DNA of 64,000 nucleotides, taken from NCBI RefSeq assembly GCF_000233715.2, contig NC_021184.1:434001-498000 (forward strand), read 5' to 3'. Numbering within the stretch: position 1 is the first letter of the stretch; each line of letters begins with the position of its first letter. Positions 11,566 to 59,558 of this stretch are shown in pieces. The stretch is from Desulfoscipio gibsoniae DSM 7213 (GTDB taxonomy: Bacteria; Bacillota; Desulfotomaculia; Desulfotomaculales; Desulfallaceae). A model generated the notes under the pieces. The model was not told the origin of the DNA and searched no databases. It saw only the letters and a list, made by a program, of their open reading frames with translations. Position numbers and translations under genes: made by a program.

Positions 11566-11579
11566 GGGGAAACAGTAGT

Positions 11580-11605: not shown

Positions 11606-11619
11606 AGGAGGTAGTTCTT

Positions 11620-12402: not shown

Positions 12403-12511
12403 CTTTATTTTTTTCGTTATCGCGAAGCACGAGCGTGGCATACCATGGCGTGTTAAATAAAATGCTGGTATTTAGAAGTTCAATGTAAATATTAGGAGGA
12501 GGTATCTTTAA

Positions 12512-13557: not shown

Positions 13558-13780
13558 AATTGGAAAAAGTATTAATAAAACTGATTTTAACCAAAAATGT
13601 TACATCCCATGCCCTGACTCCGCAAAAAAATAGTATTGATGCGTCGGAAGTGCAGCTCGGTTAGTATTGTTTAATTTGCAGGATGTAGTGTGTACCATCC
13701 TTATATGGGCTATTCTTGCAAATATGAACAAGCTGCGTTGCAAAGCTATGGCTGTGAGATACCCAGAGGGGGTGCAAAAA

Positions 13781-15787: not shown

Positions 15788-15789
15788 AT

Positions 15790-16323: not shown

Positions 16324-16354
16324 AACACTAATGTGAAGGGAGGGAGTAGAATTC

Positions 16355-17506: not shown

Positions 17507-17520
17507 AGGAGCGGCTAAAC

Positions 17521-18315
17521 ATGCAAAAAGCTGGAGTATCAAATATGAAAGGTGTCGCTACGGACATTGTCTGCTACCGCTTTTCGGAAGAAGGATGGTC
17601 AAGTACCACAGTTTACGTGCCCAGCGAGATAGAACTTACAATATATGTTAATCAACAGGAACTGGTTACCATCCTTTGCACTCCAACCAAGCTGAATAGT
17701 CTTGTCCTCGGATTCCTGTACGGAGAGGGAATCATCTCAGGCATCGGTGACGTTGTGAGCATGCGGATGTGTGAGGACGTATCGCTGGCCGATGTGAGGC
17801 TTAAAAATCCCGATTACAAGTTGCCAACGCAGCGGACAATTACCTCCGGTTGCGGTGGCGGTGCAACTTTCACAGCTCGCGGACAAAGGGTTGATTCGGA
17901 TTTTGTTGTCAAACCAAGGGAAGTGCTGTCATTGATGAAGCAGCTTCTAGAGCAGATGGAGCTGTATCGTCTCAGTGGTGGAGTGCACACTTCAGCCCTG
18001 TCCGATACCAGGAACTTGCTGGTAATAGCTGAGGATATTGGACGACATAACACATTGGATAAAATACAGGGCGAATGTCTGTTGAGGGAATTATCAACCA
18101 GAGACCGACTGCTATTAACGACCGGTCGCATATCATCGGAGATGTTACTCAAGGCAGCTAAGATGCAAACCCCGGTTGTTGTTTCGCGGCACTCACCGAC
18201 AGGGAGCGCCGTTTCGCTTGCTCAGGATCTGGGCATTGTCCTGGTCTGCCATGCGCGCGGAGGCCGGCTGCAGGTGTACACCCACCCGGAGCGACTTGAC
18301 TGCTTAACAGATTAA
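17521..18315 (+). CDS. fdhD: FdhD-family sulfurtransferase
   Basis: A 264-residue FdhD protein. In formate dehydrogenase maturation this family transfers sulfur from a cysteine desulfurase to the Mo/W-bis-pyranopterin cofactor. The reactive-loop Cys111 is visible in TSGCGGGATF; the second Cys of the classical CxxC is Gly here. Conserved GGVHTSAL and DIGRHNTLDK segments are present. It starts 14 nt after bamD with a good AGAGGAG site. No formate dehydrogenase lies nearby, so a role in finishing the BamB or another tungsten/molybdenum centre of this island is a reasonable inference. Confidence 0.85.
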   Translation: MQKAGVSNMKGVATDIVCYRFSEEGWSSTTVYVPSEIELTIYVNQQELVTILCTPTKLNSLVLGFLYGEGIISGIGDVVSMRMCEDVSLADVRLKNPDYKLPTQRTITSGCGGGATFTARGQRVDSDFVVKPREVLSLMKQLLEQMELYRLSGGVHTSALSDTRNLLVIAEDIGRHNTLDKIQGECLLRELSTRDRLLLTTGRISSEMLLKAAKMQTPVVVSRHSPTGSAVSLAQDLGIVLVCHARGGRLQVYTHPERLDCLTD

Positions 18316-18332
18316 GTACTGTAAAAATGACA

Positions 18333-18387
18333 GGGGACACACATCATTTTTTTGAGTACAAGTTTGGGTAGCCGGAGGAATGTCCCC
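18333..18387. repeat. Inverted repeat GGGGACA ... TGTCCCC
   Basis: Seven-base perfect arms enclose 41 nt with a T-rich centre, between fdhD and bamE. It could form a weak hairpin or be the footprint of a small palindromic element. It lies just before the bamE ribosome binding site. Confidence 0.35.
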
Positions 18388-18407
18388 AATTAGTGAGGTG
18401 ATAGAAA

Positions 18408-21400
18408 GTGGAAGAACTATTGCTAAAAGAAAAAATCGAGCAACTCTGCAAAAGCCGAGGCGACAGTAATTTTGGCGACGTAATGATAGTAGGCGGCGGA
18501 ATCAGCGGCATACAGGCCTCCCTAGACCTGGCCACCGCCGGTTTTAAAGTCTACCTGGTGGAAAAAGCGCCGAGCATCGGCGGCCATATGGCCCAGCTGG
18601 ACAAAACCTTTCCCACTAACGACTGCTCCATGTGAATACTCTCGCCCAAGCTGGTCGAGGTCGGCCGGCATCAAAACATAGAAGTCTTCACCTATACCGA
18701 AGTAGAAAAAGTAGTGGGAGAAGCGGGCAACTTCAAAGTAACACTGAATAAAAAGCCCAAATATATCGACGAGAGCCAATGCACCGGCTGTACAACCTGC
18801 GTAGAATACTGCCCGGTCCAATACCCGGACCAATTCAACCAGGAAATATCAAAAAACAAAGCAGTCCATATCTACTTCCCGCAGGCTATACCACTCGTCG
18901 CCTATATAGACGAAAGCTGTCTATACCTTAAAGAAAATAAATGCCGTATCTGCGAAGGCGTATGTAAAAACAACGCCATCGACTTTAATCAAACGGCGGA
19001 GACAAAAGAAATAAACGTAGGCGCGATAATCCTGGCCACCGGCTTTGAACCCTATGATCCAAAAGAGCGTGCGGAATATCGCTACGGCGAATTCGAGAAC
19101 GTCATAACCAGCATGGACTTTGAACGTCTGCTGAGCTCCACCGGGCCATACTCAGGTGAAATACTGCGCAACTCGGACAAAAAACATCCCCATAAAATAG
19201 CCTGGATCCAATGCGTCGGCTCCAGACAAGTAACCCCGGGCGGCAACAGCTATTGTTCAGGAGTATGCTGTACCTATGCCCAAAAACAAGTAATCTTAAC
19301 CAAAGACCACGACGCAGAAGCCGAATGTGCCATATTCCATAACGACATTCGCTCCTACGGCAAGGACTTTGAGCAGTTCTATGAAAGAACAGCCAACCTG
19401 CCCGGAGTCCGGTTTATCAGAAGCTACACATCAATAGTGCGCGAAGACCCGGAAACCAAAAACGTCACAGTACGTTACTCCACCCCCGACGACGGAGTAA
19501 AAGAGGAAGAATTCGACATGGTAGTATTATCCGTCGGATTGAATCCTCCAATTAACGCACAGGGCATAGCAAAGAAATTCGGCATAGAACTCACAGCCCA
19601 TGACTTTGCTAAAATCAACCCCGTCAACCCAATGGAAACCAACAGACCCGGTATATTTATAAGCGGAGCCTTCCAGGGCCCCACAGACATACCCGAATCG
19701 GTTTTCAGCGCCAGCGGAGCCGGCTCCCAATGCGGAGAACTCCTGGACTACAGGCGTGGTAAACTGGCCAAAGAAAGGATATACCCGGAAGAAAGAGACG
19801 TCTCCCGGGAGGAACCACGGATAGGAGTCTTTGTATGCCATTGTGGAGCTAACATCTCAAGAATAGTAAACGTACCATCTACAGTTGAATATGCCTTAAC
19901 CTTACCCAATGTAATCCACTCCCAGCAGCAGCTGTTCTCATGTGCAACCAACTCCGCCCAAGAAATAACAGACATGATCAAAGAAAAAGGACTCAACCGG
20001 GTAGTAGTCGCCGCCTGCTCCCCCAGAACCCTGGAACCATTATTCAGAGACACCCTGCGGGAAGCTGGAATCAACCAATATTACTACGAAATGGCCAACA
20101 TCAGAGAACACAACTCCTGGGTCCACGCCAAAGAAAAGGAAGAAGCCACCCGGAAGGCCAAGGACATCATCCGCATGTCCGTAGCAAGGGTTCGCCATTT
20201 GGAGCCCTTACAGGAATTTGACCTGCCGGTAAACAAAACCGCGTTAGTAGTAGGCGGCGGAATAGCCGGCATGAACTGTGCACTCTCCATAGCCAACCAG
20301 GGACATGAAGTATGCCTGGTTGAAAAAGACACAGACCTGGGTGGAATCGCACGTAAACTACATTCCACCCTGGAAGGACTGGATGTACAGGCGTATATAC
20401 GTGACCTTGAACGCAAAATATATCAAAACCCACTGATACACGTATATACCAGCGCCACCATCCTCGAAGCCACCGGCTATATCGGCAACTTCGTAACTAA
20501 AGTTAAATCCGACCGGGGAGAAACAGAAATAAAACATGGCGCAGCCGTCATCGCCATCGGTGCAGATTTATACAAACCCACCGAATACCTTTACGGAGAA
20601 GATGACCGGGTAATAACCCACCTGGAACTGGAGGAAAAAACCGCCAAACAAGACGAAAACCTCATCAACTCCGAAAGCTTAGTCATGATCCAATGCGTAG
20701 GCTGCAGAAACGAAGACAGAAAATACTGCAGCCGGGTATGCTGCAGCGAATCTATAAAGAACGCCTTAAAACTAAGAGAACTAAACCCCGAAATGGACAT
20801 CTATATTCTCTTTAGAGACATGAGAACATATGGTCTCAAAGAAGACTACTACCGTGAAGCAGCAAGCAAAGACATACGCTTCATTCGCTACGAGCCGGAT
20901 GACAAACCTGAAGTAGAAGCCGGTGAATCGGAAGAAGGCCGGCCCGTACTAAAAGTAACTGTAACCGATCTCATTTTAGGCAAAAAACTTGAAATAGATG
21001 CCGATACAGTTACCTTGGCTGCCGCCGTCATACCCTCTGCAGCAACCAAAGAAATAGCCGATTTATTCAAAGTAACCCTGAGCCCGGACGGCTTCTTCAA
21101 AGAAGCCCACGTCAAATTAAGACCTGTCGAATTTGCTACAGACGGCGTTTATCTATGTGGCTTGGCTCACTACCCCAAGCTGATACCGGAAACCATAAAC
21201 CAAGCTTACGGCGCAGCCGGCCGGGTCTTAACGCTTCTCTCACGTGATACAGTCGTCGCCTCAGGCTCTGTTTGCGAAGTCAATGAAAAGAAATGTATGG
21301 GCTGCGGGGCATGTGTCTCAGTCTGTACCTATGGAGCCATAGAGCTTCGTAAGAAAAAGGCAGTAGTAAATCCTGTGCTCTGCAAAGGAGACGGACTCTG

Positions 21401-21530
21401 TAACTCCAAGTGTCCAACAGGGGCTATTACACTCAAGCACTTTACCGATCAAACGCTCTTAAGCCAAATTGACGCCGTAATCCCAGAAGAAGAAATCATC
21501 CGACAAATTGATGCAGCGGCTGGAGAATAA
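18408..21530 (+). CDS. bamE: BamE: HdrA-like flavin/iron-sulfur protein, selenoprotein (in-frame UGA at codon 76)
   Basis: GTG start after a GAGGTGATAG site. Read through TGA at 18633-18635, the product is 1040 residues. The first HdrA-like part has [12 protein letters not shown] (FAD) and then NDCSM[15 protein letters not shown], where HdrA proteins normally have Cys; the frame and homology continue unbroken. A ferredoxin segment follows ([12 protein letters not shown]). A second HdrA-like FAD unit begins near residue 610 ([14 protein letters not shown]), and the protein ends in a 2x[4Fe-4S] domain ([17 protein letters not shown]). It probably couples low-potential benzoyl-CoA reduction to a second acceptor by flavin-based bifurcation. 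Codons look more C- and A-ending than in bamB or bamC. Confidence 0.88.
18633..18659 (+). promoter_or_regulatory. UGA codon with SECIS-like hairpin in bamE
   Basis: Starting six nt after the TGA, CTCGCC pairs with GG and CGAG around a CAAGCT loop, with a single bulged T. A short stem with a bulged U at this distance is what bacterial SelB-recognised SECIS elements look like. The pairing was done by eye. Confidence 0.55.
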
Positions 21531-21561
21531 AGCGGCCTTATTGATAAGGAGGTGAGAACGA

Positions 21562-22395
21562 ATGAGTACAATAAAATTTAAACCAAGAATATTAGGTTTT
21601 GTATGCCACTGGTGAGCATACGGCGCTGCTGACTTGGCTGGCGTGTCCAGACTACAATATACAACAGAAATGAGACTTATTCGCGTTATGTGCTCCGGTA
21701 GAGTCGACCTGGCACATGTACTCAGGGCCTTCTCAAAAGGAATAGATGGAGTATTTATTGGTGGCTGCCATTTAAATGAATGTAACTACATTACACATGG
21801 AAATTACCATGCACTGAACATGGTGCTGCTATGCAAAAAAATAATGGAACACCTGGGGCTGAACCCAAAAAGGCTAAGGATGCAATTTGTATCCGGCGCT
21901 GAAGGAAACCTTTTTGCCGAAAGTGTTAATGATTTTGTCAAAAATATAAAAGGTTTAGGACCACTAGGCAAAGGGGAAGGCATAGACGAAAAAGAACTTC
22001 AGGCCAAACTTGCAGAAGTTACAAAGCTAGTCCCCTACATTAAAGTGGTCAAGCAGGAAAAACTGGCAGCACGTCTTGAAAACCCGGAAGAATATGAAGG
22101 GCATTTTACGAGTGAAGAAATAGATAAGTTATTGAATGAAGTCGTCTCGTACTATATTGATCCGTCGAAATGCCAGGCCTGTATGACTTGCGCGAGAAGA
22201 TGCCCCGCAGAGGCGATTATAAGTGCCAAGAACCAGATCCATGTAATTGATCAGGATAAATGCATAAAATGCGGAACTTGTTTTGAAGCTTGCCCCACTA
22301 AATTTGGCGCGGTGACGAAGATTTCCGGCGGGCCTGTTCCGCCTCCTATTCCTGAAGAAGAAAGAACTATAATTAGGAAGAGTAAAGAAAAATGA
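21562..22395 (+). CDS. bamF: BamF: MvhD-like iron-sulfur protein, selenoprotein (in-frame UGA at codon 18)
   Basis: The ATG at 21562 follows AAGGAGGTGAG. The frame reads ILGFVCHW, then TGA (21613-21615), then AYGAADLAGVSR. This is the MvhD N-terminus, in which the UGA position is usually Cys and is Sec in some archaeal and bacterial homologues. Ending at 22395, the product is 277 residues. The MvhD domain (about 1-140, with GGCHLNECNY) is followed by two [4Fe-4S] motifs (CQACMTCARRCP and CIKCGTCFEACP). It would mediate electron transfer with BamE. An ATG-less reading beginning after the UGA would lose the cluster-binding N-terminus and is rejected. Confidence 0.87.
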
Positions 22396-23706: not shown

Positions 23707-25555
23707 TTAAAATTCCCATCCCCGTGCCATGAAGTACTGCTGTACAGTTTCTTTTATATTTTGATAGGACAATGGCGGTCTGATGCCACCTTGAAATGGT
23801 AATGGCTCCTTATAAAAACGCTGGGGGAATACATATTCATCAAGATTTTCGCCTTCACGTACGTTAAACTGGTGTTGTAAATTCCAGATTTTTACCGCTG
23901 CTTCCAAAACTTCTTCAGCTGTAAATGGGTAACCTAGTATTGCTGAAAGCGTTCGCGCGTAAAAATCGGGACCCAACGATCTATGAGAGGGTGGTCTGAT
24001 GCAAAGCCCGGTAGAATTAATGATTGTGATTAAATCTTCAGCATACTTGGCCATTCGGGGAATATTTACTTTGGCTGGTGGCTCACCAAAAATTTGGCTT
24101 TTTAAATCCTCAGGCATATCCAGATCGTGAACAACTTCTTCGGCAACGTCCAATTTTTTGTTCCAGGTGATTGTGCCCCGGGCTTAACAGCGCATCGACC
24201 GTTGACCTGGTGCGCAGATGATCTCCGCCCCGGGTATTGGTAAGGTTACCTAACGTCCAGACATCCCATTTCCCCCGGGGATCTCGGACCGGTATTTCCA
24301 CTCCTTTGACGTGCATGGCATAATAAGCACTATTAGGGATCCGGGCAGAAGCTATCTTTACTCCTTCTGCTAAAAGATCGCCAATACCCTGTCTTTTCCC
24401 GATTTGATCAAGAAGGCTTGTAATACCTGGAAAATCGCCCCATTGCACAGGAACTTCCCGGCTTAATTCTTTCAATAAGCCGTGCTGGTTGGCTTCAATA
24501 GCAAATGCAATTACACCCGCGGCTGAGACTACATCCATACCATAACGATTACAGATCTCCGCACACTTTAATATCTCTGCAATTTCCTTAATGCCCAACT
24601 TGGCTCCGAATTCAAATGTATAAGTTACCTCAAGCCCCTTGGCTTCGTATCCTTCGTATTGGCCATATTTCACCCGCGACCAATGGGCGCAAGCCACTGG
24701 GCACGAAAAACAAGCCAGGTCTTTTTCTTTATAGTTCTTGGCAAAAAAACCTCGGCCTCTGGTTTCAACCCAATCAGGAAATGAACCACAGGTAAAGTTA
24801 AGACCGGGAAGAGCGCCAATTTTGTTATAAGGATCAGCTACTACCATGCTTCCGTAACACCTGGTATAACCAAAGTGGTCATTGCTTAGTACTTTTTTGA
24901 AGGCTTCTGTCATAATGCGGGCAAAGGCCAGATGGTCGGCCACCCGTGCTATACCCGTTCCACGAACGGCAATAGCTTTGAGATTCTTACTGCCCATCAC
25001 CGCGCCCATACCGGTTCTGCCCCAGGCACCGTGATAATTGTTTATTACTGAGGCAAAACGCACCAGCTTTTCCCCTGCGGGCCCGATGCTGGCAATTTGG
25101 AAGTCACTGCCTTTTTCTTGTTTTATTTTTTCAACAGTGGCCCAAGTATCCAGACCCCAAAGATGAGTTGCATTTTCTACTTTAATTTGACCATCGTCAA
25201 TCATAAGATAGACAGGAATAGAACTTTTCCCCGTTATAACGAGGTGGCTGTAACCCGCAAACTTAAGGGCCGCCCCCCACAGTCCACCGCTATTTGCAGT
25301 TCCGAAGCGGTTACTCAAAGGCGACTTGGCAGTAAGTTCAGTCCGGGCGGCGGTGGGCAGCAAAGTCCCCACAAATGAGCCTGCTCCAAAGATTAAAACG
25401 TTATCGGGACCAAGCGGTTCACTGTCAGGAGGTATAAGATCAACCATCAGTTTTGTATTTACACCCAGCCCCCCTAAAAATTCCTTATGCAGATTCATAC
25501 CATCAACAACATCAATCTTTTGATTAATAAGGTCAATTTTAATTATTTTAAACAA
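23707..25555 (-). pseudogene. Third AOR-family gene, frameshifted near its 3' end
   Basis: Residues 1 to about 470 form a tungsten AOR: MFKIIKIDLINQ, FLGGLGVNTKLMVDL, CFSCPVACAHW for the cluster, and DPRGKWDVWTLGN in the C-terminal domain. After CTG GAA CAA the frame enters a run of six A (24147-24152) and ends at a spurious stop (24110). The +1 frame continues LDVAEEVVHDLDMPEDLKS to 23707. One extra A explains it. Corrected, the protein is about 616 residues. It diverges from BamB and pairs with the small ferredoxin gene at 25796, so an aldehyde oxidoreductase role is as likely as ring reduction. It is preceded by a sigma-54 promoter. Confidence 0.82.
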
Positions 25556-26169: not shown

Positions 26170-27633
26170 TCATGCTTCGTTGTCATTTGATTGTTTTTGA
26201 TCCTTGAGTTGCCTTACATTATTTGTTTTTTTACTCTTATTAACTTTTGCTATCTTGCGAATTACTGTGGTTTGATGAACACCTAATATTTTGGCGACTT
26301 TGTATGTGCTATTAAATTTGGCCATGCCCTGCTCTATTAACTGGCGCTCAACTTCTAATACTGCTTGTCTCATCGGCATAATTCCATCGACTATAATCCT
26401 CCCGTCACCTGAAGCTGGGAGCATATCATGAGGTAGATCATCTACTGTGATTGTGTTTCCTATAGAAATAATAAGTAACCTTTCAACTGCGTTTTGTAAT
26501 TCGCGCACGTTACCTGGCCAATCGTAAGCGTAAAAATGATTAAGGACTTTTCCGGAGAACTCCTTTTTTATTTTGTATTTTTTAGAAATTAAATCCTTAA
26601 AATGGTAGACTAAGGGTATAATATCATCCTTCCTTTCCCGTAATGGAGGGATTAAAATTGGTACGACATTTAAACGGAAAAATAAATCTTCCCGGAAAAG
26701 ATTTTGATTCACTAGTTCTTTTAGGTCCTTGTTAGTTGCTGTTATGACCCTTACATCTACTTTTCGTGGCTTTGCTCCTCCTACGCGTATTACTTCTTTT
26801 TCCTGAAGTACTCTCAATAATTTTGGCTGTAAGGATAAGGATAAATCGCCAATCTCATCTAAAAAAATGTCGCCATTGTGGGCTAATTCAAATAGGCCGG
26901 CTTTACCCTCCTTGTTGCCACCGGTAAAAGTGCCTGATTCGTAACCAAAAAGCTCCGATTCAATAAGACTTTCCGGAATAGCGCTGCAGTTTACCTTTAT
27001 AAACGGTCCTAGTTTGCGTTCACCGTGGTCGTGAATTAGTTTCGCAATAACTTCTTTGCCTGTACCGGATTCACCAAGTATTAGAACTGTTGTATCTACT
27101 CGAGCTAATCTGAGGGTTAAGTCGATTATTTTTTTCATCTTTATTGATTTGGCAACAATATCAATGTTTTCTTGGCTTTGAACACGCATTTCATTAATTT
27201 CTAAAGAATATTTCTGAGTGAGAAGCTTGGTCTGTTCCAACTGCTGTTGCAACTGGTTTAATTCGGTAACGTCCTTTGAATAAAGAACTACATAAGCAAT
27301 TTCATTATTATCGTCAATTACCGGTGCACCAGTGACCAGTAAACAAGTATTAAAGGGTGTATACTGCATTAAGGTAACAGACTGTCGCCTCTTCAATGCT
27401 AGATCAATTACCGGGTCATTATATATACCTTTCTGTACTAAACTAAATATGGTCTGGCCGATTATTTCCTTATTTGACAAACCAGTTAGCCTTTCCTGAA
27501 CGTTGTTAGCCATTTTAATAATCCCGTCTACTGTCAAAATCATAATGCCGTCCGGTAGACTATCTAGTAAAGATTGGAGTATTTTCCTAAAACCGGGCTT
27601 TAGCTTTATAGCCAATAATCTCGTCACCCCCAA
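26170..27633 (-). CDS. Sigma-54-dependent PAS/AAA+/Fis-HTH transcriptional activator
   Basis: The 487-residue protein has a PAS sensor domain (about 15-125), a coiled linker, an AAA+ domain with Walker A GESGTGKE (187-194) and Walker B DIFLDEIGD, and a C-terminal Fis-type helix-turn-helix (STYKVAKILGVHQTTVIRKI). The sigma-54 contact loop, normally GAFTGA, is GTFTGG (234-239). The PAS domain suggests direct sensing of a small ligand without a kinase. The TTG start is tentative because no clear ribosome binding site precedes it. The gene is flanked by two perfect copies of the palindrome found at sigma-54 promoters across the window, so it is the best candidate for their binder. Confidence 0.88.
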   Translation of the reverse strand: MGVTRLLAIKLKPGFRKILQSLLDSLPDGIMILTVDGIIKMANNVQERLTGLSNKEIIGQTIFSLVQKGIYNDPVIDLALKRRQSVTLMQYTPFNTCLLVTGAPVIDDNNEIAYVVLYSKDVTELNQLQQQLEQTKLLTQKYSLEINEMRVQSQENIDIVAKSIKMKKIIDLTLRLARVDTTVLILGESGTGKEVIAKLIHDHGERKLGPFIKVNCSAIPESLIESELFGYESGTFTGGNKEGKAGLFELAHNGDIFLDEIGDLSLSLQPKLLRVLQEKEVIRVGGAKPRKVDVRVITATNKDLKELVNQNLFREDLFFRLNVVPILIPPLRERKDDIIPLVYHFKDLISKKYKIKKEFSGKVLNHFYAYDWPGNVRELQNAVERLLIISIGNTITVDDLPHDMLPASGDGRIIVDGIMPMRQAVLEVERQLIEQGMAKFNSTYKVAKILGVHQTTVIRKIAKVNKSKKTNNVRQLKDQKQSNDNEA

Positions 27634-30206: not shown

Positions 30207-30396
30207 ATAGCAGGGACTATAAATTAAGTGGATTACATTGAGTGGATCGGGCACAAAAGCAAAAACTAACGTCTTGCGCCAGATCGGCCTGGCCTTTTTA
30301 GGCCAGTCGTGATGGCGACACGCCCATGGTTTTATTAGGATTATGTGGGTATTTACTACACTTCTTGACCAGGTTCCTGGAATGGAGGTTATTGTT

Positions 30397-31332
30397 ATGA
30401 CAATAGGAGTTTCTAACATAGTTAATCAAAAGCTTAAAGGAAGAATTTTTAATATTCAGAGGTTCTCTCTAAACGATGGGCCTGGAATTAGAACAACGGT
30501 CTTTTTTAAAGGTTGTCCTTTGCGTTGCCTTTGGTGTAGTAATCCTGAATCTCAACAAGGAGCCCCGCAATTGTTCCACTTGAGCAACTTATGCACAAGA
30601 TGTTATCGTTGTATATCTGTTTGTCCTACAGGAAGCACTCAAGTTGGCTCAGGGGGAGAAGTAGTAATAGATCGTGAGAAATGTAAGGTTTGTGGTAAGT
30701 GTGTTGAAGCTTGTCCTAATGAAGCACGAGTTGTCATGGGTAAGGAAATGTCGTTAGAGGAAGTATTTGACACAATTAAAAAGGACTCACTTTTTTTCCG
30801 AAATTCTGGTGGAGGAGTAACTTTTTCAGGTGGCGAGCCAACCCAACAGATAGTCTATCTTCGCTCTTTGCTTAAACTATGCGGGGCATACGGGTTTCAT
30901 ATAGCTCTTGAAACCTGTGGATATGTAGCATGGGAGGTGCTCAAAAGTATATTGGGGGACGTGGATCTAATATTATATGACCTAAAACATATTGACCCGA
31001 TAAAACATAAGCAACTAACTGGTGTAGAAAACCAAATTATATTAAGCAACTTGCAACAAATTGTTAAACTTGGCCAAGATGTAGTTGTAAGAATACCATT
31101 TATACCGGGCTGTAATGATTCTCATGAAAACATAGAGGCAGTAGGCATGTACTTGCGCGAAATCGGGCAGAAGCGAGTGGATCTCATCCCTTATCACCGA
31201 TTAGGTGAGGGTAAATATAGGTCATTAGGTTTGCATTATAAATTAGAGGGCGTAGCCATAAATACCGAGGAAAATGTTCAAAGGGCGGTAATGGCATTAA
31301 AAAATTTTGGTTTGGATGTAGAGGTGATTTAA
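30397..31332 (+). CDS. Glycyl-radical enzyme activating enzyme (radical SAM)
   Basis: The ATG at 30397 follows TGGAGG; an earlier in-frame ATG at 30343 lacks a site. The 311-residue protein has the radical SAM cysteines in GCPLRCLWCSNPE, preceded by NDGPGIRTTVFFKG as in PFL-activase-type enzymes. Two extra ferredoxin clusters follow (CTRCYRCISVCP, CKVCGKCVEACP), typical of activases for non-PFL glycyl radical enzymes. It would generate the glycyl radical on a partner; the only candidate in the window is the enzyme at 44798, 13.5 kb downstream. It lies between the molybdopterin enzyme and a dead ligase gene. Confidence 0.88.
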   Translation: MTIGVSNIVNQKLKGRIFNIQRFSLNDGPGIRTTVFFKGCPLRCLWCSNPESQQGAPQLFHLSNLCTRCYRCISVCPTGSTQVGSGGEVVIDREKCKVCGKCVEACPNEARVVMGKEMSLEEVFDTIKKDSLFFRNSGGGVTFSGGEPTQQIVYLRSLLKLCGAYGFHIALETCGYVAWEVLKSILGDVDLILYDLKHIDPIKHKQLTGVENQIILSNLQQIVKLGQDVVVRIPFIPGCNDSHENIEAVGMYLREIGQKRVDLIPYHRLGEGKYRSLGLHYKLEGVAINTEENVQRAVMALKNFGLDVEVI

Positions 31333-44797: not shown

Positions 44798-47191
44798 ATG
44801 TCTACCGAGAATATAAACCAGGTGAGAGACCAGGTGCTTTCGGAGAGGGTCAAAAAAGAAAAGGAAGAATTGCTTTCAGCCGTCCCCTGTATTGATACAG
44901 AATATATTGAGTTTATGCTCGATGTGTATAAGGAAAATAAAACGGATCCTTTTATTATCCGGCGGGCTAAGTTATTTAATAAGCTGTGCTCCGAAAAGAC
45001 CTTATTTATTGATAACAACCCGATTATTGGGACTCTTACCAAGTACAAATATGGGTCTTATCCACTTTTTGAGGAAGGTTGCGGGTGGATGAAAAGGACA
45101 GAAGAGTTCGCCCTTCCACGAGGTAAGGTCAAAATAACCCCAGAACTCAGAAAATATATAGATAAAGGTGTGGAAGCTTGGAAAGACTCAACATTATTTA
45201 GTATGACACGCAAACTTGTCTCTGAAATATATGACGTCGATTTGCGTGTTTTTACAAGATGTGGTGTGTGGCTGGAAGCTACTCCTGGTAGTGCCGCCCA
45301 TGGTATCCTTCCTGATTACGCTAAAGTGTTGAGCAAGGGATTAAACGGATTACTCGCGGAAATAGAGGAAACGGAAGCAAGACTCAACACCAGTGAACTA
45401 GACGGTATAAACAAGTGGTATTTTTGCAAAGCAGCTAAAACCACGCTTAACGGAATGATAACTTTGGCTGGAAGATATGCTGCGCTGGCCAGGGAAATGG
45501 CTGAAAACGAAAAGGATGCAGTAAGAAAACAGGAGTTAGAAGAGATAGCTGATATCTGCCAATGGGTTCCGGCCAATCCCGCTCGAAATTTCCGTGAGGC
45601 CATTCAATCTTTTTGGTTTGCGACATTAGGAGTATGGATGGAGTCACCTAAAGGCCTTAATAGTCCACCAACTAATTTTACTAAGGTATTGTATCCTTAT
45701 TATCGCAAAGATAAGGATGAAGGTAGAATCGTTGAATCTGAGGCAATTGAAATGATTCAGTACTATTTCTTAAAAATTAACCAACTGGCATACGTTTTAT
45801 CACCGCATGCTTACCGGTGGAATCAAAGCCGGTTAGGTATGCAACTAAGTGTAGGTGGCTTAACGCCTGATGCGGAGGATGCTACGAATGAGTTAGATTG
45901 GCTGGTGTTAGAAGCACAACAACAGATTAGGCTGCCGGAACCTTTGGTTAACCTTGTATATCACGATAAACTTTCGGAGGATTTTTTGTTAAAGTGTGTT
46001 GACTTAATTCGAACTGGAATAGGTCAGCCGGCATTTCATAATAGCCAGGTGGTCATTGAGCGTCATTTGCTCCACCATAAAATGCCGCTGGAAGAGGCTA
46101 GGACATTTATTATTTGTGGCTGTGTACAAAGCGCTATACCTGGCTGTACGGATAATTATTGGGAAACGAGATTTAATGTTGCCAAGATGATTGAGCTAAC
46201 CATGGAAAATGGTAAAGACCCTCTAACTGGAAACCAGCTTGGTCTTCAAACTGGAGATGTGGAAAGCTTTACTAGCTTTGACGAATTTTATCAGGCATTT
46301 TGCAAGCAACTGGATTATTTCATTCGGCTAACACATAATGTTTCCAGAACAGCTTGGAGTTTACAACGTAACTTTCCTACTCCATATGGTTCATCCCTTG
46401 TTAATGACTGTATAGAAAAAGGTATAGATATTTCAGATGGAGGAGCTAGATATAGTTTTGGTGATGGGGTTTGTTTTGCCGGAGTAATTGACGTAGCTAA
46501 TTCACTGGCAGCAATAAAGAAGTTGATCTTTGAGGATAAAAAGCTGACGATGCGTCAATTGAAGGAGGCCATTGCCGCTGATTTCGAGGGTTATGAAGAA
46601 GTGTTACGGTTGTGTCTGGATGCTCCCAAGTATGGAAATGATGACGACTATGCAGATTTAATAGCAAAAGATATTTATAACATTGGTTATGATTCCCATT
46701 CAAAAGTTGATCATTTAGGTAGACCGGTAATGCCATCAGCTTATTCGGTAACAGCTCATGCAGCTTTTGGTGAATTTACCGGGGCGTTGCCCAATGGCAA
46801 AAAGGCGAGAAAACCTTTATGTGACGGCAGTATATCGGCTCAGAGCGGCACGGATAAAAATGGTGTTACAGCACTGGTCAAGTCCGCGACCAGAGTAATC
46901 GATACCGTGAAATATGGCTCGAGTCACCTTAATATGAAGTTTCATCCCGTTGCCTTAAAAGGTATCAATGGAGCAAGGAATTTGCTTTCTCTTATTAAGA
47001 CTTATTTTGATTTAGGAGGGTATCACGTTCAGTTTAACTGTGTAAGTGGTGAAACCTTGAGGGATGCACAGCTTCATCCCGAAAACTATAAAGACCTGGT
47101 AGTAAGGGTGGCCGGGTTTAGCGCATTTTTTGTTACCCTTGAAAAGGATGTTCAAGAAGAAATTATCGATAGAACTGAATTGATGATGTAA
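44798..47191 (+). CDS. Glycyl radical enzyme of unassigned specificity
   Basis: A 797-residue enzyme of the PFL/diol dehydratase/decarboxylase superfamily. The glycyl radical is Gly773 in RVAGFSAFF near the C-terminus, and the thiyl residue is Cys442 in ICGCVQSAIPGC. Most lyases and dehydratases of the family have GCVE; here the Glu is Gln444, so substrate handling should differ. PLCDGSISAQSGTDKNG precedes the C-terminal region. Neither the small subunits of benzylsuccinate-type synthases nor the HpdC subunit of hydroxyphenylacetate decarboxylase is adjacent. The activase is probably the protein encoded at 30397. Flanking genes suggest an aryl- or cycloalkyl-acid substrate. Confidence 0.88.
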   Translation: MSTENINQVRDQVLSERVKKEKEELLSAVPCIDTEYIEFMLDVYKENKTDPFIIRRAKLFNKLCSEKTLFIDNNPIIGTLTKYKYGSYPLFEEGCGWMKRTEEFALPRGKVKITPELRKYIDKGVEAWKDSTLFSMTRKLVSEIYDVDLRVFTRCGVWLEATPGSAAHGILPDYAKVLSKGLNGLLAEIEETEARLNTSELDGINKWYFCKAAKTTLNGMITLAGRYAALAREMAENEKDAVRKQELEEIADICQWVPANPARNFREAIQSFWFATLGVWMESPKGLNSPPTNFTKVLYPYYRKDKDEGRIVESEAIEMIQYYFLKINQLAYVLSPHAYRWNQSRLGMQLSVGGLTPDAEDATNELDWLVLEAQQQIRLPEPLVNLVYHDKLSEDFLLKCVDLIRTGIGQPAFHNSQVVIERHLLHHKMPLEEARTFIICGCVQSAIPGCTDNYWETRFNVAKMIELTMENGKDPLTGNQLGLQTGDVESFTSFDEFYQAFCKQLDYFIRLTHNVSRTAWSLQRNFPTPYGSSLVNDCIEKGIDISDGGARYSFGDGVCFAGVIDVANSLAAIKKLIFEDKKLTMRQLKEAIAADFEGYEEVLRLCLDAPKYGNDDDYADLIAKDIYNIGYDSHSKVDHLGRPVMPSAYSVTAHAAFGEFTGALPNGKKARKPLCDGSISAQSGTDKNGVTALVKSATRVIDTVKYGSSHLNMKFHPVALKGINGARNLLSLIKTYFDLGGYHVQFNCVSGETLRDAQLHPENYKDLVVRVAGFSAFFVTLEKDVQEEIIDRTELMM

Positions 47192-52023: not shown

Positions 52024-52575
52024 TTAGTCCTTCCGCGACATTCGAATGATGGTATCCACTAGGTTCTGTAAGCCATATTTGTCTACCAATGATTGCAACC
52101 CTGTCTCCATATCGCTCATATTTGCTTCTTCTTCCTCGACTTCCTCTTCTCTTTCTTCGTAAGTCAGTGCTTCGGCTAAGCACCACTGAACACACAAGGG
52201 CTCTTTTTGGGGCGGATCGTCTTCACACATATCGCATTTAAGGGGGAGGCCGGAATCGGGTTCTTTGAAAATGTTTCTCGATGGGCAAGATGCTCTGCAG
52301 AAAGCACACTCATCGTATTCCTTTCCATCAATGACATATTTGTCCCTGCCCATACATTCTGCAGTAGCAATCTCGCCCGCATATACAGGAACATATATAT
52401 CTTTTAGTGGGTCACGAATTACCCGGATTCGGGACCTCGCTATATTATTACTGCTATATTTTGGCGTAGCATGAAATGCGGAGCAAATTATCTCACATGC
52501 TCGACAACCATTGCATTTATCTGGATCAATTTTTATTGTCTTAATGATTTTCTTTTTTTTATCACCACAACTCAT
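52024..52575 (-). CDS. bamC: BamC-like ferredoxin subunit, second copy
   Basis: 183 residues, with the same order of cysteine motifs as the protein at 15790: CNGCRACEIICSAFH, CAFCRASCPSRNIF, and CDMC ... CVQWC. The helical acidic C-terminus is also shared. It begins 2 nt after the bamB copy (52578), so gene order and spacing equal those of the first locus. It would form a BamBC core unit; bamDEF are not duplicated here, so it must share those of the first locus or use other donors. Confidence 0.85.
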   Translation of the reverse strand: MSCGDKKKKIIKTIKIDPDKCNGCRACEIICSAFHATPKYSSNNIARSRIRVIRDPLKDIYVPVYAGEIATAECMGRDKYVIDGKEYDECAFCRASCPSRNIFKEPDSGLPLKCDMCEDDPPQKEPLCVQWCLAEALTYEEREEEVEEEEANMSDMETGLQSLVDKYGLQNLVDTIIRMSRKD

Positions 52576-52577
52576 GT

Positions 52578-54587
52578 TTACACCTCCTTCTTTTCTCCTG
52601 CAGAGATCTCTGCGGAAGGTGTATTACCATTATCTGAATAGATTCCTCTCATTTCGAAATCTTCAAAAACGTAATCCATACCCAACTCATGTAAAAACTC
52701 TTTTGTAGGAATACCCTGATTATCCCACCCCTTGAATTTGTAATACTCATCCAAAAGCTTGGCTTCAAGCTCGGGAAATCTATGCTTCCAATGGTTTTCC
52801 GGTGGCTTCTCATCAGCTTTCCTCATGCCTCTTCTTATATTGATGGCCCTAACTAGATTTCGGGTTCTCTTGGTTACCTTTACCAGCTCGGCTTCATCAA
52901 TATCTAACCCAGTTGCAGCTGAAATGATATGCGGGAAATTGTGTATATGGTAGGGAGGTTTCATAGCAAAGGATGAGACAAGGGTACAAATGCCTGTGCA
53001 GTCATCGATATAGTGCATCATCTCCATCCAGTCAACAATTTCGCAACATGCTTGAATGGGTGGGTTATATGGAAAGGAGCGCGGTTCCCAGTTCAAAAAA
53101 TACTCCTTGATCCTTTCATTAGGAACCTGGATCCAATCCTTTATAAAGTCTTCCCGTTCTTCCCTTGTTTCCGGAGGGTTCTGCGGGAACTGTCCTTCAA
53201 TCTGGGTGATATTAATCTTCTCACCGGTGCAATACATAAGATAATAAAAGGGATTCATCATGCCCAGCTTAAGAGGTGCCTGCTCATGTTTTTTGATGCT
53301 ATTATGATCGTACGCTTCTGCTCCTTCGCCGATTTGACGGGCTGCCGCATATGTGCCATTGGCCAAAATATCCCCTATTCCTTCTCTCCGAACGATTTTT
53401 TCAAGTAAATAGAAAAATCTGTCCTCATCATTAGAAGGAAATCCCGGCATGTCTTTGTCGGTCAAAATGCCATCCTCGTAAAGTTCAATGGCAAAAGCCA
53501 TAAGTGTCGGTGCCGAGAACCCATCAATTCCATACTCATCACCAAGACAAGAGATTTTAAAACCAAAATTATAGTTGTCTGACCTTGCTGCTGCTATATA
53601 CCTGACGTGCTGGGAACATTTCAGCATATGTCTTCTTTTAATCTCCGGGTGAGAAACTAGTCCACCGCATTTAACTGGACAGTTATAACAACTTACCAAC
53701 CGTTCCAACCGTTCTTCATGAATCCTTTTCCACTCTTCTGCGATTTCTTTGGTCCAAAAGTCTTTTCTCCTATACCGGGCATTTCCCGCGGCAAACATGC
53801 TCATGTGCCATCCTTCATCAGGATCTGCAAACTCTTGAACTCCTAATGTGGCAAGTTGGGATGTGGGTACCCCTTTATCGAGAGGATTTTTTAGCCGGTG
53901 ATCTATATATTTGAGCAATTCATTACAAAGCTCCATAAACTCAGCCGGTCTGGCGATATGAATGTCTTTTGTTCCACGAACAGCTATCGCCTTTAAATTT
54001 TTATCTCCCATAATGGCGCCTACTCCCAATCTGCTGCAGCTGCCCTTACCTGCCTGGATGGAAGCGTGATAAACCCTATTTTCACCGGCCAGGCCAATTG
54101 CAGCCACCTGGGCCTCTGGTTCCTTTATCTCCCTGCAAATAAGTTCTGCAGTTTCAATAGTTCCTTTTCCCTGAAGATGACGGGCATCACGTATCTCTAC
54201 TTTGTCGTTGTTTATCCACAAATAAACCAGATGGGGGGACTTGCCGCGAATGATTATTTTGTCATAGCCGGCACGCTTCAATTCTGGTGCCCAAAATCCC
54301 CCCATCATTGAAAAGGCCATTAACCGCGTCTGAGGAGAAATGGTAGAAACAATGGTGCGATTAGCACAAAAAGCTGGTGTGCCACATAAAAGACCAGCGC
54401 TAAATATTAGTAAATTATCAGGAGAAAAGGGTTCAACTTCAGGGGGAACCCTATCCCATAATATCTTGGCGTTAGTGCCTAGCCCTCCAAGATAAAGTTC
54501 GGTTAATCTTAGGTCGGTTTCTACTCTCTCAATGTTTCCTCGGGATAGATCAATTTCTAAATGGTACCCTGTCTCTGCGTACCTCAT
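52578..54587 (-). CDS. bamB: Class II benzoyl-CoA reductase catalytic subunit BamB, second copy
   Basis: 669 residues starting MRYAETGYHLEIDLSRGN after GAGGGGG. It is closely similar to the protein at 13781 over its whole length, including CYNCPVKC, YLMYCTGEKINITQIEGQFP and the C-terminal HELGMDYVFEDFE. As a tungsten AOR-family enzyme with a BamC partner it should reduce benzoyl-CoA or a substituted analogue. Unlike the first copy it has its own palindrome and sigma-54 promoter, so the two are probably induced differently and may differ in substrate. Confidence 0.87.
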   Translation of the reverse strand: MRYAETGYHLEIDLSRGNIERVETDLRLTELYLGGLGTNAKILWDRVPPEVEPFSPDNLLIFSAGLLCGTPAFCANRTIVSTISPQTRLMAFSMMGGFWAPELKRAGYDKIIIRGKSPHLVYLWINNDKVEIRDARHLQGKGTIETAELICREIKEPEAQVAAIGLAGENRVYHASIQAGKGSCSRLGVGAIMGDKNLKAIAVRGTKDIHIARPAEFMELCNELLKYIDHRLKNPLDKGVPTSQLATLGVQEFADPDEGWHMSMFAAGNARYRRKDFWTKEIAEEWKRIHEERLERLVSCYNCPVKCGGLVSHPEIKRRHMLKCSQHVRYIAAARSDNYNFGFKISCLGDEYGIDGFSAPTLMAFAIELYEDGILTDKDMPGFPSNDEDRFFYLLEKIVRREGIGDILANGTYAAARQIGEGAEAYDHNSIKKHEQAPLKLGMMNPFYYLMYCTGEKINITQIEGQFPQNPPETREEREDFIKDWIQVPNERIKEYFLNWEPRSFPYNPPIQACCEIVDWMEMMHYIDDCTGICTLVSSFAMKPPYHIHNFPHIISAATGLDIDEAELVKVTKRTRNLVRAINIRRGMRKADEKPPENHWKHRFPELEAKLLDEYYKFKGWDNQGIPTKEFLHELGMDYVFEDFEMRGIYSDNGNTPSAEISAGEKKEV

Positions 54588-55518: not shown

Positions 55519-55534
55519 TGGTACATATTTTGCA
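55519..55534 (+). promoter_or_regulatory. Sigma-54 promoter of the bcrC-like operon
   Basis: TGGTACatattTTGCA matches the consensus. Transcription would start about 145 nt before the ATG at 55691. Confidence 0.75.
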
Positions 55535-55690: not shown

Positions 55691-56803
55691 ATGGAGGTCT
55701 ATAAGAACTGGTATGAAAACCGTCACCAGTACGCTAAAGAGTGGAAAAAGAAAACGGGCGGTAAGGTAGTGGGTTATCTATGTACCTATGTGCCAGAGGA
55801 AATCCTTTATGCCGCAGATATATTGCCTGTACGGATCTTGGGCAGCCACGAAGCTCAGGATGTAACCGAACCCCATATCTTCGATATGTACTGTCCTTTC
55901 TGCCGTGACTGCCTGGCCCAGGGACTCGAAGGGCGTTACGACTACCTGGACGGTATTGTGATTGCTCAGTCCTGCCTGCATATCCGTAATACGTTTGCGA
56001 GCTGGGATTTACATATACCTATAGATTTCAGCTATTACCTGCCTGTGCCCCAACACGTTCAAAGTGCCAGCTCCTATTCCTTTTTAAGGGAAGAATTGGC
56101 TCTTTTCAAAAAGGCCATTGAAGACTGGACCGGTAAACCCATTAGTAATGCCGACCTGGATAAGGGTATTGAAGTGATGAATACTAACCGTCGTTTAATG
56201 CGGGAGTTATATGAATTTAGAAAGCAACCGGAAACACCGATTACCGGTCTGGAGTCCCTGTATATGGTTGTGTCCGGTCAGATGACTGATAAGCGTGAAC
56301 ACAATCGGGCTTTAGAAAAAAAATTAAAAGAAATCCCAGGCCACAACCTTAACCGTGAAACGGGTGAACGGTTAATGATCATTGGAAGCGAGGGTGACGA
56401 TACTGCATTTATCAGTATGGTTGAAGGTCTCTTGGGAGCTACCTTCGTGATCGAAGATCACTGCACCGGAAGCCGTTACTTCTGGAACCAAGTAGTACCT
56501 CAGGAAGACCGTCTGGCGGCCATTGCTGCCCGTTACGTCGACCGCACACCCTGTTCTTCAAAGGATTGGCCGGATAGAAAGAGGTTAACCAATGCTTTAG
56601 AGTTAGCCAGGGAATGGAATGTGAAAGGCGCAGTTCTGGCGCAGCAAAAGTTTTGTGATTCTCATGAGTTTGACATTCCGGCTTTCAAAAAAGCTTTTGA
56701 GGAAAATGGAATACCCACTCTATTACTGGAATTTGACTCTCTTAACCCGCTGAATCCTTTCCGGGTTCGGGCAGAGGCTTTTCTAAAAATGTTAGGACAA
56801 TAG
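55691..56803 (+). CDS. BcrC/BadD/HgdB-like subunit (class I benzoyl-CoA reductase/2-hydroxyacyl-CoA dehydratase family)
   Basis: 370 residues starting after TAGGAGG. The N-terminus (AKEWKKKTGGKVVGYLCTYV, then PEEILYAADILPVRILG) follows the BcrC/BadD pattern. Candidate cluster cysteines lie in FDMYCPFCRDC, AQSCLHIRNT and QQKFCDSHEFD. In the family two such subunits each bind an iron-sulfur cluster and the CoA ester, and electrons come from an ATP-driven activator. Length and gene order (C then B) fit benzoyl-CoA reductase better than hydroxyglutaryl-CoA dehydratase. No BcrA/BcrD or HgdC activator gene is in the window. Confidence 0.82.
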   Translation: MEVYKNWYENRHQYAKEWKKKTGGKVVGYLCTYVPEEILYAADILPVRILGSHEAQDVTEPHIFDMYCPFCRDCLAQGLEGRYDYLDGIVIAQSCLHIRNTFASWDLHIPIDFSYYLPVPQHVQSASSYSFLREELALFKKAIEDWTGKPISNADLDKGIEVMNTNRRLMRELYEFRKQPETPITGLESLYMVVSGQMTDKREHNRALEKKLKEIPGHNLNRETGERLMIIGSEGDDTAFISMVEGLLGATFVIEDHCTGSRYFWNQVVPQEDRLAAIAARYVDRTPCSSKDWPDRKRLTNALELAREWNVKGAVLAQQKFCDSHEFDIPAFKKAFEENGIPTLLLEFDSLNPLNPFRVRAEAFLKMLGQ

Positions 56804-56888: not shown

Positions 56889-58202
56889 ATGGCTACTTTG
56901 AAGCAAAAATATCCTACTGAGTCCCTGAAATGTTGGAATAAAGCAAAAGAGCTACGTGAGGAGTATTACCTCAACTACCGTGATGCAAAGAAAAATGGCG
57001 GCATTCGCTGGGCCGGTGGCGCATGGTCTTTTGACGCCGTTCCCCAGGGTTTGGGTGATGACGTATATAATATTACCAGTGAGCCTTACGCAGCGTCGAT
57101 CGCTGCTAACAAGGAACTGGCCGTACAGTGCATGGAAGCCACGGAAAAGGCCGGTTACGCCCGGGATCTTTGTGCCTATATGAGAATTTACGTTGGTTCG
57201 ATCCTGCTCGATAAATACCTGTGGGGTGGCGCTTACCCTAAACCCGACTTTATCTGGCAGGATCATATTTGCTGCGGTCATTCCAAATTGTATCAGGTGG
57301 TGCGCGACCTGGAACCTGATGTTCCAATGTTCAGCATTGACGTATCGGCAGGTCCTTACGATGTTATAAAGGATCACCAGATCAAGTATATAGTAGACCA
57401 ACTGTCAGAAGGAATTGAGTGGCTGGAGAAGGTCACCGGGCGGAAGTTTGATGACGAGAAGTATATCAAAGCAGTTAAAAATGAATGTTTGACTACCTCA
57501 TTGTGGGCGGAAATTTGCTCCTTGAACAGGGCAACGCCTGCCCCCCTCGATGAGAAGTCAATGTATACACTTTATGTTTTTGGCACCTTAGGAAAGTCAA
57601 ATGAAAAATATGTAGAGTTCTATCGTGAGTTGCTAGATGAAGTGAAAGACCGGGTGGCCAGAGGGATAGCCGCTGTGGGCAATGAGCAGTGCCGCCTGAT
57701 CTCTGATAGTCAGCCACCATGGGGTTTCCTGAAGGTTTTTCGCTATTTGGAAAGCTATGGGGCAGTATCAATTGGTTCGATCTATACCTTTGGCCTGGGA
57801 GGGATCTGGGAGGATAAGCCGGACGGCACTTGGGGAGCCCGTACTACCCCGATGGAGAATGGGATTGAGATTAAGACACGGGAGCAGGCGCTGTGGATCA
57901 ATGCTGAGTGGAACCTCAGTAAGCCGCTATGGCAACATTTTTATCACCCCAAATATAAAACAGAGATAATGAAACGAATCTACGATGAATGGAATGCAAA
58001 TGGGATCATTCTGCACTACAACCGCGGCTGTGAGGGGACTTCCCTGGGGGTCGCGGAGAACCGCCTCGGTCTTATGAAAGCAGGTTGTCCAGTTATGACT
58101 TATGAGGGAAACATGGGAGACGAGCGCGAGTTTGACGAGGTTGCGACCATGTCCCGTATTGATACATTTATGGAAAACCTCGGGGTTAAAAAGCTTTATT
58201 AG
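56889..58202 (+). CDS. BcrB/BadE/HgdA-like subunit (class I benzoyl-CoA reductase/2-hydroxyacyl-CoA dehydratase family)
   Basis: 437 residues, the length of BcrB. Recognisable segments are [20 protein letters not shown] in the first half, [15 protein letters not shown] in the middle and [20 protein letters not shown] near the C-terminus, with cysteines suited to cluster binding. It follows the bcrC-like gene by 85 nt with a GGGAGGA site, and pairs with it as the heterodimeric core. It would reduce or dehydrate an aromatic or cyclic acyl-CoA if an activase is encoded elsewhere. Confidence 0.82.
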
Positions 58203-58292
58203 CCAAAATGCATATCCTCTTTAAATAGTTGTAAATAAGAATACCTAGTATTAAAATTAAATAAATTATTTTCCAATAGCGTGGAGGAAAAA

Positions 58293-59489
58293 ATGGATTT
58301 TGAGTTTACTAAAGAACAAAAAATGACACAAGAAATGGTGAGGGAGTTTGCCCTAAAGGAGATTGCCCCTAAAGTCCAAAAAAATGACGAATTTGCCTCT
58401 TATAACAGGTCTTTTTTATCGAAGATGGGCCAAATGGGGATATTTGGTCTTTGTATCCCTAAGCGATATGGGGGTAGTGGTTTTGACTATAACTCTCTTG
58501 CGATAACCTGTGAAGAACTGGAGAAGGTTGACACGGGAGCAAGGTTGACCATTACCACTCATGTGGCCTCCTTTGCCTTGACCCTGCTTCAGTGGGGTAC
58601 TACGGAACAAAAATGTAAATACCTGGTCCCCGCTACTAAAGGCCAATTATTCGGAGCTTTTGCTTTAAGTGAAAGCCAGGCTGGAACGGATCTTAGCAAC
58701 CTCACGGTCACGGCTCGTAAAGAGGGTGATTACTACATCTTGAACGGGACTAAAATGTGGGTTGCCCTAATCGATATTGCCGATGTATTTTTAGTTTTTG
58801 CCCGTATGGATGACCCGGACAAAAAACAAAAAATAACCTGTTTTATTGTCGAGCGCAGTTTTGCCGGGGTACAAACAGAAAATATTTATGGCAAAATGTA
58901 TGTTCGGCTGGCTAACACTGGCCAATTATCTTTGGACAACGTACAGGTTCCCCTCGAAAACCGACTGGGTTTTGAAGGCGAAGGCATGTCAATCGCTTTA
59001 AGCGGTATTGATAACGGTCGCTTTTCCTCTGCAGCGGGGGCCGTTGGGGTGATTCAGGGTTGTCTGGAAGCTAGCGTGAAATACGCTCAAAAAAGACATG
59101 CTTTTGGGCAACCAATTGGAAAATTCCAGCTTATTCAGTCCAAAATTTCGGAGATGTACTCCAGTGCCGAGATTTCTAGATTGCTGGTGCATAAAGTTGG
59201 CTGGCTGAAAAATGAAGGACGGTACTGTACTAAAGAAACAGCTCTAGCCAAGTTGTATGCCTGTGATATGGCATTTAAAGCGGCGGCTGACGCTATGCAG
59301 ATTCATGGAGCACAAGCTTATCTTGACAGCTTTCCATTAGAAAGGTATTTGCGTAATGCGAAAGGGGCGATGATTTACACCGGTACCAGCGAGATTCAGG
59401 AAATTATCCTGGCGGAATATGCTCTTGGCTACAGAAAAGATAAACCACTAAGGAAAGAATTGCCGCCCTGGAATAGTGAGGAAGAATAA
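58293..59489 (+). CDS. Acyl-CoA dehydrogenase lacking the usual catalytic glutamate
   Basis: The ATG at 58293 is set by GTGGAGG at 58281-58287; a GTG inside that site was rejected. The 398-residue protein has the full fold (FALSESQAGTDLSNL, QIHGAQAYLDSFPLERYLRN). At the base position, normally IYEGTSEIQ, it reads IYTGTSEIQ (Thr363). The alternative helix-G position is also not Glu (NGRFSS). Loss of this Glu is known from cyclohex-1-ene-1-carboxyl-CoA dehydrogenases, which form cyclic dienes using an Asp elsewhere; I could not identify that Asp here. Its place after the bcrCB-like genes fits alicyclic ring chemistry. A 17-residue stub of a sister gene lies at 13504. Confidence 0.85.
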   Translation: MDFEFTKEQKMTQEMVREFALKEIAPKVQKNDEFASYNRSFLSKMGQMGIFGLCIPKRYGGSGFDYNSLAITCEELEKVDTGARLTITTHVASFALTLLQWGTTEQKCKYLVPATKGQLFGAFALSESQAGTDLSNLTVTARKEGDYYILNGTKMWVALIDIADVFLVFARMDDPDKKQKITCFIVERSFAGVQTENIYGKMYVRLANTGQLSLDNVQVPLENRLGFEGEGMSIALSGIDNGRFSSAAGAVGVIQGCLEASVKYAQKRHAFGQPIGKFQLIQSKISEMYSSAEISRLLVHKVGWLKNEGRYCTKETALAKLYACDMAFKAAADAMQIHGAQAYLDSFPLERYLRNAKGAMIYTGTSEIQEIILAEYALGYRKDKPLRKELPPWNSEEE

Positions 59490-59518: not shown

Positions 59519-59558
59519 ATAGTAATCAGCGGGGTTGGTACACCCCGCTGATTACTAT
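59519..59558. terminator. Strong hairpin after the dehydrogenase gene
   Basis: ATAGTAATCAGCGGGGT and its exact reverse complement enclose a 6-nt loop. It lies between convergent genes. The T-run is poor, so it is called from stem strength and position. Confidence 0.7.

Follow-up and report, generated by a model that had tools for sequence, protein, structure and literature searches.

The gene at 58293–59489 (+ strand) encodes an acyl-CoA dehydrogenase in which a threonine, Thr363, occupies the place of the catalytic glutamate (IYTGT), as identified by alignments, Pfam and AlphaFold2. A substitute acid is apparently absent as well, and this protein, referred to here as the 'Thr enzyme', probably performs unusual chemistry, to judge from sequence comparison. 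We propose, tentatively and at somewhat less than an even chance, that it acts as a dehydrogenase or reductase on a ring-derived acyl-CoA and works without a carboxylate base. No publication on this enzyme was found in the literature searched. If two separate lineages made the same Glu-to-Thr exchange at the same residue and differ in the changes that go with it, the fold would repeatedly have escaped its textbook mechanism; the enzyme would also stand for a step, so far unassigned, in the anaerobic degradation of aromatics by Gram-positive bacteria. The window, by which we mean the whole stretch of DNA analyzed (64,000 nucleotides from Desulfoscipio gibsoniae DSM 7213), is part of a single contig of 4,855,529 bases.

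The catalytic position and its surroundings

The open reading frame specifies 398 amino acids and starts with ATG at 58293, preceded immediately by GGAGGA, a ribosome-binding-site-like motif read from the sequence (58283–58288, + strand). The Pfam domains Acyl-CoA_dh_N, _M and _1 are all matched, and the protein is a full-length acyl-CoA dehydrogenase. Its AlphaFold2 model, made with six aligned sequences, has a pLDDT of 82.5 and a pTM of 0.86, and falls below a pLDDT of 50 at residues 202–205, where Gly is replaced by Tyr203. The best structural matches of the model are ordinary acyl-CoA dehydrogenases (4l1f, Z 52.2). Judged as a member of the acyl-CoA dehydrogenase superfamily, the protein has the N-terminal, middle and C-terminal domains and the fold; the catalytic Glu, whether of loop JK or of helix G, is missing. 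Directly 3' of the gene, between two convergent genes, lies a strong hairpin with a 17-pair stem and without a clear T-run (59519–59558, + strand; –30.4 kcal/mol, z –5.98).

IYTGT spans residues 361–365. A search of the genome returned 15 acyl-CoA dehydrogenase matches, the Thr enzyme itself included, and Glu is kept at the catalytic column in all 14 of the others, which bears out the change from IYEGT reported in the preliminary description of this DNA. That description also held the alternative, helix-G Glu to be absent, and correctly: the column that we take to be the helix-G Glu site of isovaleryl- and long-chain acyl-CoA dehydrogenases has Gly242 in the Thr enzyme and Ala in its orthologue, L016. 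A further claim, that the Asp91 used as a base by another Glu-less enzyme (7p98, discussed below) is missing and replaced by Val, stands in its first part, since residues 81–104 of the Thr enzyme include no Asp or Glu. The counterpart was placed one residue off, however; both alignment modes tried set Asp91 of 7p98, presumably the catalytic base of that enzyme, opposite Ala92.

Could an acid have been gained elsewhere? At 51 positions the Thr enzyme and L016 share a residue that is absent from all nine of the more distant cousins described in the next section (L039–L047). The only acids among these are E14 and E287, and neither column is peculiar to the pair: of eight other paralogues and relatives shown, four have an acid at the first and six at the second. 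Sequence comparison thus found no newly gained acid among the 51 positions that would explain the loss of Glu, although an acid might still reach the active site from a remote part of the chain or from another subunit. Eight of the 51 fall within residues 82–94 (82, 83, 85–89 and 94), and others include 203, 206, 342, 344 and 363; because many lie outside the active site too, not every change need bear on catalysis. Residue 203 is Gly in all nine cousins and Tyr in the Thr enzyme, and Ala158, Tyr203 and Ala342 all deviate from conserved positions. Tyr362 is retained, as are many family-conserved residues, Arg243 and Lys320 among them. The column of Ala158 is, we assume, that of the flavin-contacting Thr of acyl-CoA dehydrogenases; the orthologue has Ser there, and the Ala may weaken catalysis.

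Relatives, ancestry and origin of the threonine

Orthologues were sought at E 1e-110 in the order, for which the collection has 113 genomes and which makes up the whole class there. The Thr gene occurs in two of them, the source genome and a second, G049, whose protein (L016) is 71% identical and also reads IYTGT. Sequencing error or gene decay was considered and is ruled out by this shared motif and by the pattern of codon changes. Among 397 codons, the two genes differ at 91 first, 47 second and 226 third positions, and the predominance of third-position differences indicates that the protein is under selection (dN 0.18 by NG86; dS not computable).

An even sample of the phylum, 398 genomes, gave ten with matches at E 1e-102: the source genome and nine others, whose proteins (L039–L047) are 43–54% identical to the Thr enzyme and all have Glu. 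Eight of these, L039–L046 (48–54% identical), are the closest relatives found after the orthologue. They resemble the Thr enzyme in possessing Arg84 and a similar C-terminal extension, and differ from it in that all eight retain IYEGT. Other collections gave more distant matches: one in genome_contigs (36%), two among viral contigs (38% and 25%), and 304 plasmid records, all below 60% identity. In a tree of 26 rows, which took in 10 of the 14 paralogues and five of nine further loci from the order, the Thr pair branches together (100/100) and groups with eight of the Glu-bearing cousins in a clade that likewise has 100/100 support.

The nearest precedent is 7p98, which we take to be the known ring-oxidizing Thr acyl-CoA dehydrogenase, an enzyme of ring dienoyl chemistry. 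It has the acyl-CoA dehydrogenase fold and the identical IYTGT, in which the Thr is likewise residue 363 (its catalytic stretch is RDAKLTQIYTGTNQ), and it matches the Thr enzyme structurally with Z 47.2 (best structure, 52.2). The recovered fragment, residues 54–377, has Asp at 91, unlike the Thr enzyme with its Ala92; 7p98 also lacks an Arg at position 84, is only ~30% identical, and acquired its Thr separately. A second tree, again of 26 rows, covered seven of the 14 paralogues along with 7p98, represented by its fragment, and five of the twelve relatives of 7p98 that were retrieved. It places 7p98 elsewhere, with Glu-bearing relatives (98/98), and requires two changes to explain the Thr label; a single change suffices in none of 200 bootstrap trees. 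With two changes forced, Thr would have arisen separately in the lineages of the two enzymes, each time within a Glu-bearing clade. That the Thr enzyme is simply an enzyme of the 7p98 type is therefore highly improbable, and already disfavoured, in spite of the identical motif: the identity is low, the clade is another one, Asp91 is missing and Arg84 is present. The absence of Arg at position 84 in 7p98 indicates, rather, that the two enzymes probably differ in substrate. The parallel drawn earlier with cyclohex-1-ene-1-carboxyl-CoA dehydrogenases was accordingly right in kind and wrong as to family, at ~30% identity and in different clades.

The 7p98 fragment has matches in 44 of the 113 genomes of the order (E 1e-88), and the best 12 of these, 55–58% identical, all have Glu363, with Leu at the Asp91 column. 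The best match in the source genome is a gene other than the Thr gene (L004 at C1:1954372, 51%), with Glu present. 7p98 ranked 12th and 22nd in searches made with two paralogues from the window, and was not among the matches to a helix-E fragment taken from a further gene of the window.

The ancestry of the Thr enzyme points instead toward glutaryl-CoA dehydrogenase. Arg84 is invariant in an alignment of 11 rows, and aligns with an Arg of the D. multivorans enzyme (PDB 3mpi/3mpj; the alignment is to 3mpi), which suggests an ancestor of the dicarboxyl-CoA type. The two proteins are 35% identical in structure alignment, and differ in that the D. multivorans enzyme has its catalytic Glu. Glutaryl-CoA dehydrogenase is also the second-best NCBIfam model for the Thr enzyme, at 302.2 bits and below the cut-off of 470. 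According to excerpts of PMC3169403, the terminal carboxylate of the substrate is contacted in the Burkholderia and human glutaryl-CoA dehydrogenases by a Tyr that precedes the catalytic Glu and is bonded to an Arg; Arg84 was aligned to 3mpi, rather than to these two enzymes whose Arg the excerpts describe. Among the nine cousin loci, inspected with flanks of ~1.5 kb, at least two lie beside a gene that resembles succinate-glutarate CoA-transferase (412 and 388 bits; cut-off 750) and at least two beside one for a 2-oxoacid:acceptor oxidoreductase subunit. Descent of the Thr enzyme from a dicarboxyl-CoA dehydrogenase seems likely from these comparisons.

Proposed chemistry without a carboxylate base

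Since Glu has been lost and nothing was found in its place, the alpha carbon of the substrate most likely needs no deprotonation. We picture the Thr enzyme as an FAD-type acyl-CoA dehydrogenase, derived from a glutaryl-CoA-dehydrogenase-like ancestor, that gave up the carboxylate that removes the alpha proton. Hydride would pass, in one direction or the other, between FAD and an acyl-CoA already unsaturated at the alpha carbon, such as a ring-derived enoyl- or dienoyl-CoA whose oxygen or carboxylate is bound by Arg84. The reaction would recall the ring dienoyl chemistry of 7p98, with Arg84 added and Asp91 missing. C-alpha would then need no protein base. The remaining proton might be accounted for by the substrate's own acidity, by water, or by the side chain of a Thr, Tyr or His; candidates are Thr88, Thr89, His90 and Tyr203. 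A more specific version, in which this is a second, independently evolved, carboxylate-free Thr enzyme that oxidizes or reduces an oxygenated, ring-derived dienoyl-CoA (e.g. from 3-hydroxybenzoyl-CoA), with Arg84 holding the enolate or carboxylate, is unlikely as it stands.

The strongest competing explanation has decarboxylation take over from deprotonation. In such a decarboxylating or eliminating dehydrogenase, the departure of a carboxylate or other group would replace proton abstraction, as proposed for the benzylmalonyl-CoA dehydrogenase IaaF. Like the Thr enzyme, IaaF lacks the catalytic Glu, and excerpts of PMC8360864 give it a base-free mechanism as a proposal; the glutaryl-CoA-dehydrogenase-like lineage, with Arg84 and Tyr362 kept and no replacement acid found, agrees with this reading too. 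IaaF differs, however, in having a GGG motif without Tyr rather than YTG, and in forming a subclass of its own that belongs to iaa operons. Its authors suggest, in the same excerpts, that loss of the Tyr makes space for the alpha-carboxylate, whereas Tyr362 is kept in the Thr enzyme. The pathway, moreover, is not known to include a malonyl-type intermediate. We consider decarboxylation somewhat unlikely for these reasons. Those excerpts list several acyl-CoA dehydrogenase subfamilies without Glu, so loss of the Glu is not new in itself; the Thr form is not mentioned in them.

Alternatively, the Thr enzyme might be an ordinary alpha,beta-dehydrogenase of a dicarboxyl-CoA that employs an unorthodox base: His90, Tyr203 or water. 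Such an enzyme would be expected to have the domains and fold intact and to keep most family-conserved residues, as this one does, and in G049 its gene stands beside two sets of beta-oxidation genes. Thr at the Glu position supplies no base, however, and in the published work on the 7p98 enzyme the same Thr reportedly accompanies loss of the ordinary alpha,beta-dehydrogenation. This makes an ordinary dehydrogenase rather unlikely.

Neighbouring genes and sigma-54-type sites

The Thr gene directly follows two genes for subunits of a class I (Azoarcus-type) benzoyl-CoA reductase, a bzdN-like gene at 55691–56803 (+ strand; TIGR03190, 464.2 bits, cut-off 453.8) and a bzdO-like gene at 56889–58202 (+ strand; TIGR03191, 659 bits, cut-off 448.6). 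The preliminary description called these neighbours bcrCB-like; adjoining reductase genes are indeed present, and the above-cut-off scores make them bzd-type instead. A BzdQ-family gene, also above cut-off (459.6 bits), occurs at C1:1448257, ~956 kb from bzdNO, so that the genome encodes BzdN, BzdO and BzdQ of a class I (bzd) benzoyl-CoA reductase, each above its cut-off. This scatter agrees with the genome paper, excerpts of which state that the class I genes bzdNOPQ are not grouped as one unit, and leave open which reductase acts on 3-hydroxybenzoyl-CoA and how this compound is degraded (PMC4148979).

Adjacency to bzd genes was considered as proof of function and dropped. G049, the only other genome found with the Thr gene, has no bzdO (best match, 28%), which renders the adjacency weak functional evidence, and at bzdO loci of 16–20 kb in four other genomes no match to a window acyl-CoA dehydrogenase appeared among the two best listed for each open reading frame. 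Three genes of the aldehyde:ferredoxin oxidoreductase family also occur in the window, at 13667–22395 (+ strand), 24110–25555 (– strand) and 52024–54587 (– strand), two of them with Fe-S partners. HdrA/FlpD-like genes accompany them, and together they resemble what we take to be class II benzoyl-CoA reductase (bam) sets.

The gene run in G049 is stronger functional evidence than the bzdNO neighbours. It begins with genes for a 3-hydroxyacyl-CoA dehydrogenase, an enoyl-CoA hydratase, the Thr enzyme, a fusion of HMG-CoA synthase with an OB-fold domain, and a thiolase, and continues with a Glu-bearing acyl-CoA dehydrogenase, a 3-hydroxyacyl-CoA dehydrogenase, a hydratase and an amidohydrolase. 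Apart from the Thr gene, counterparts of this run, 61–85% identical, lie in the window at 4115–13450 (+ strand): the fusion, the thiolase, acyl-CoA dehydrogenase 2 (with Glu kept), two 3-hydroxyacyl-CoA dehydrogenases, enoyl-CoA hydratases (three, versus two in G049) and the amidohydrolase. Several ring-cleavage schemes would accommodate the HMG-CoA synthase/thiolase pair, the amidohydrolase and the two sets of beta-oxidation genes. Within ~20 kb of the G049 Thr gene there is also a cluster like that of the benzylsuccinate pathway (bbs-like), with a BbsB-like thiolase (397 bits, below the cut-off of 750), CoA transferases and a glycyl radical activase. A gene of the benzoate-CoA-ligase family, above cut-off, lies within the same distance; the next model for it, 3-hydroxybenzoate-CoA ligase, is below cut-off.

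The run contains both the Thr gene and the gene for the Glu-bearing acyl-CoA dehydrogenase (6857–7993 in the window), and this raises a further alternative, that the Thr enzyme is a non-catalytic or partner subunit, e.g. of that dehydrogenase. The deviations at Ala158, Tyr203 and Ala342 are compatible with such a role. Against it, many family positions, such as Arg243 and Lys320, are kept in a protein under selection, and the Thr enzyme and the product of 6857–7993 are ~34% identical. A partner role is quite improbable, and a catalytic Thr enzyme free of a carboxylate base is the reading that we retain.

The first gene of the window cluster, at 4115–5617 (+ strand), is one open reading frame that joins an HMG-CoA synthase domain to a ChsH2-type OB-fold domain, beside the thiolase; such a fusion in a degradation cluster is unusual. 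The HMG-CoA-synthase marker occurs in three of the 113 genomes of the order, both of the Thr-gene genomes among them. In another genome, G083, which is 83% complete, the core of the cluster is present and the contig ends soon after; no orthologue of the Thr gene was found in this incomplete genome with its cluster cut by the contig end. The window amidohydrolase, present in the G049 run as well, was found at E 1e-75 in only one of the 398 genomes drawn from the phylum, the source genome. Upstream of the cluster, 1776–2660 and 2691–3173 (– strand) correspond to two fragments of a single, intact phenylacetate-CoA-ligase-like open reading frame of 495 amino acids in G083 (L060, 5076–6563), and hence look like a broken gene. 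Elsewhere, the window encodes a glycyl radical enzyme (44798–47191, + strand) and an activase (30343–31332, + strand). Among solved structures the former comes closest to glycerol dehydratase and choline lyase; a chain labelled benzylsuccinate synthase, 8iof, ranks lower among the matches.

Sigma-54-type (–24/–12) sites, which are consensus matches and predicted promoters, occur 11 times in the window where 2.62 would be expected, a count that none of 100 shuffles reaches. By the list of open reading frames, eight lie between genes and three inside them. One, with a single mismatch, is 5' of the bzdN–bzdO–acyl-CoA dehydrogenase genes (55519–55534, + strand), and another, also with one mismatch, is 5' of the genes that begin at 4115 (3995–4010, + strand). 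Immediately before the window, a stretch of the source genome has two such sites and no excess (59 of 200 shuffles). The excess in the window suggests that aromatic catabolism may form a sigma-54 regulon here. The G049 locus has two sites in all, a count reached by 47 of 200 shuffles, and one of these, a perfect match, lies ~100 bases 5' of the first gene of the Thr-gene run. In G083, a site precedes the cluster, and the locus has four, reached by one of 200 shuffles. The window also encodes a sigma-54-dependent activator (26170–27633, – strand), ~13 kb from the 4115–13450 cluster; a relative, 67% identical, stands directly before the G049 run, and in G083 another, partial and 74% identical, is separated from the cluster by ~12 kb.
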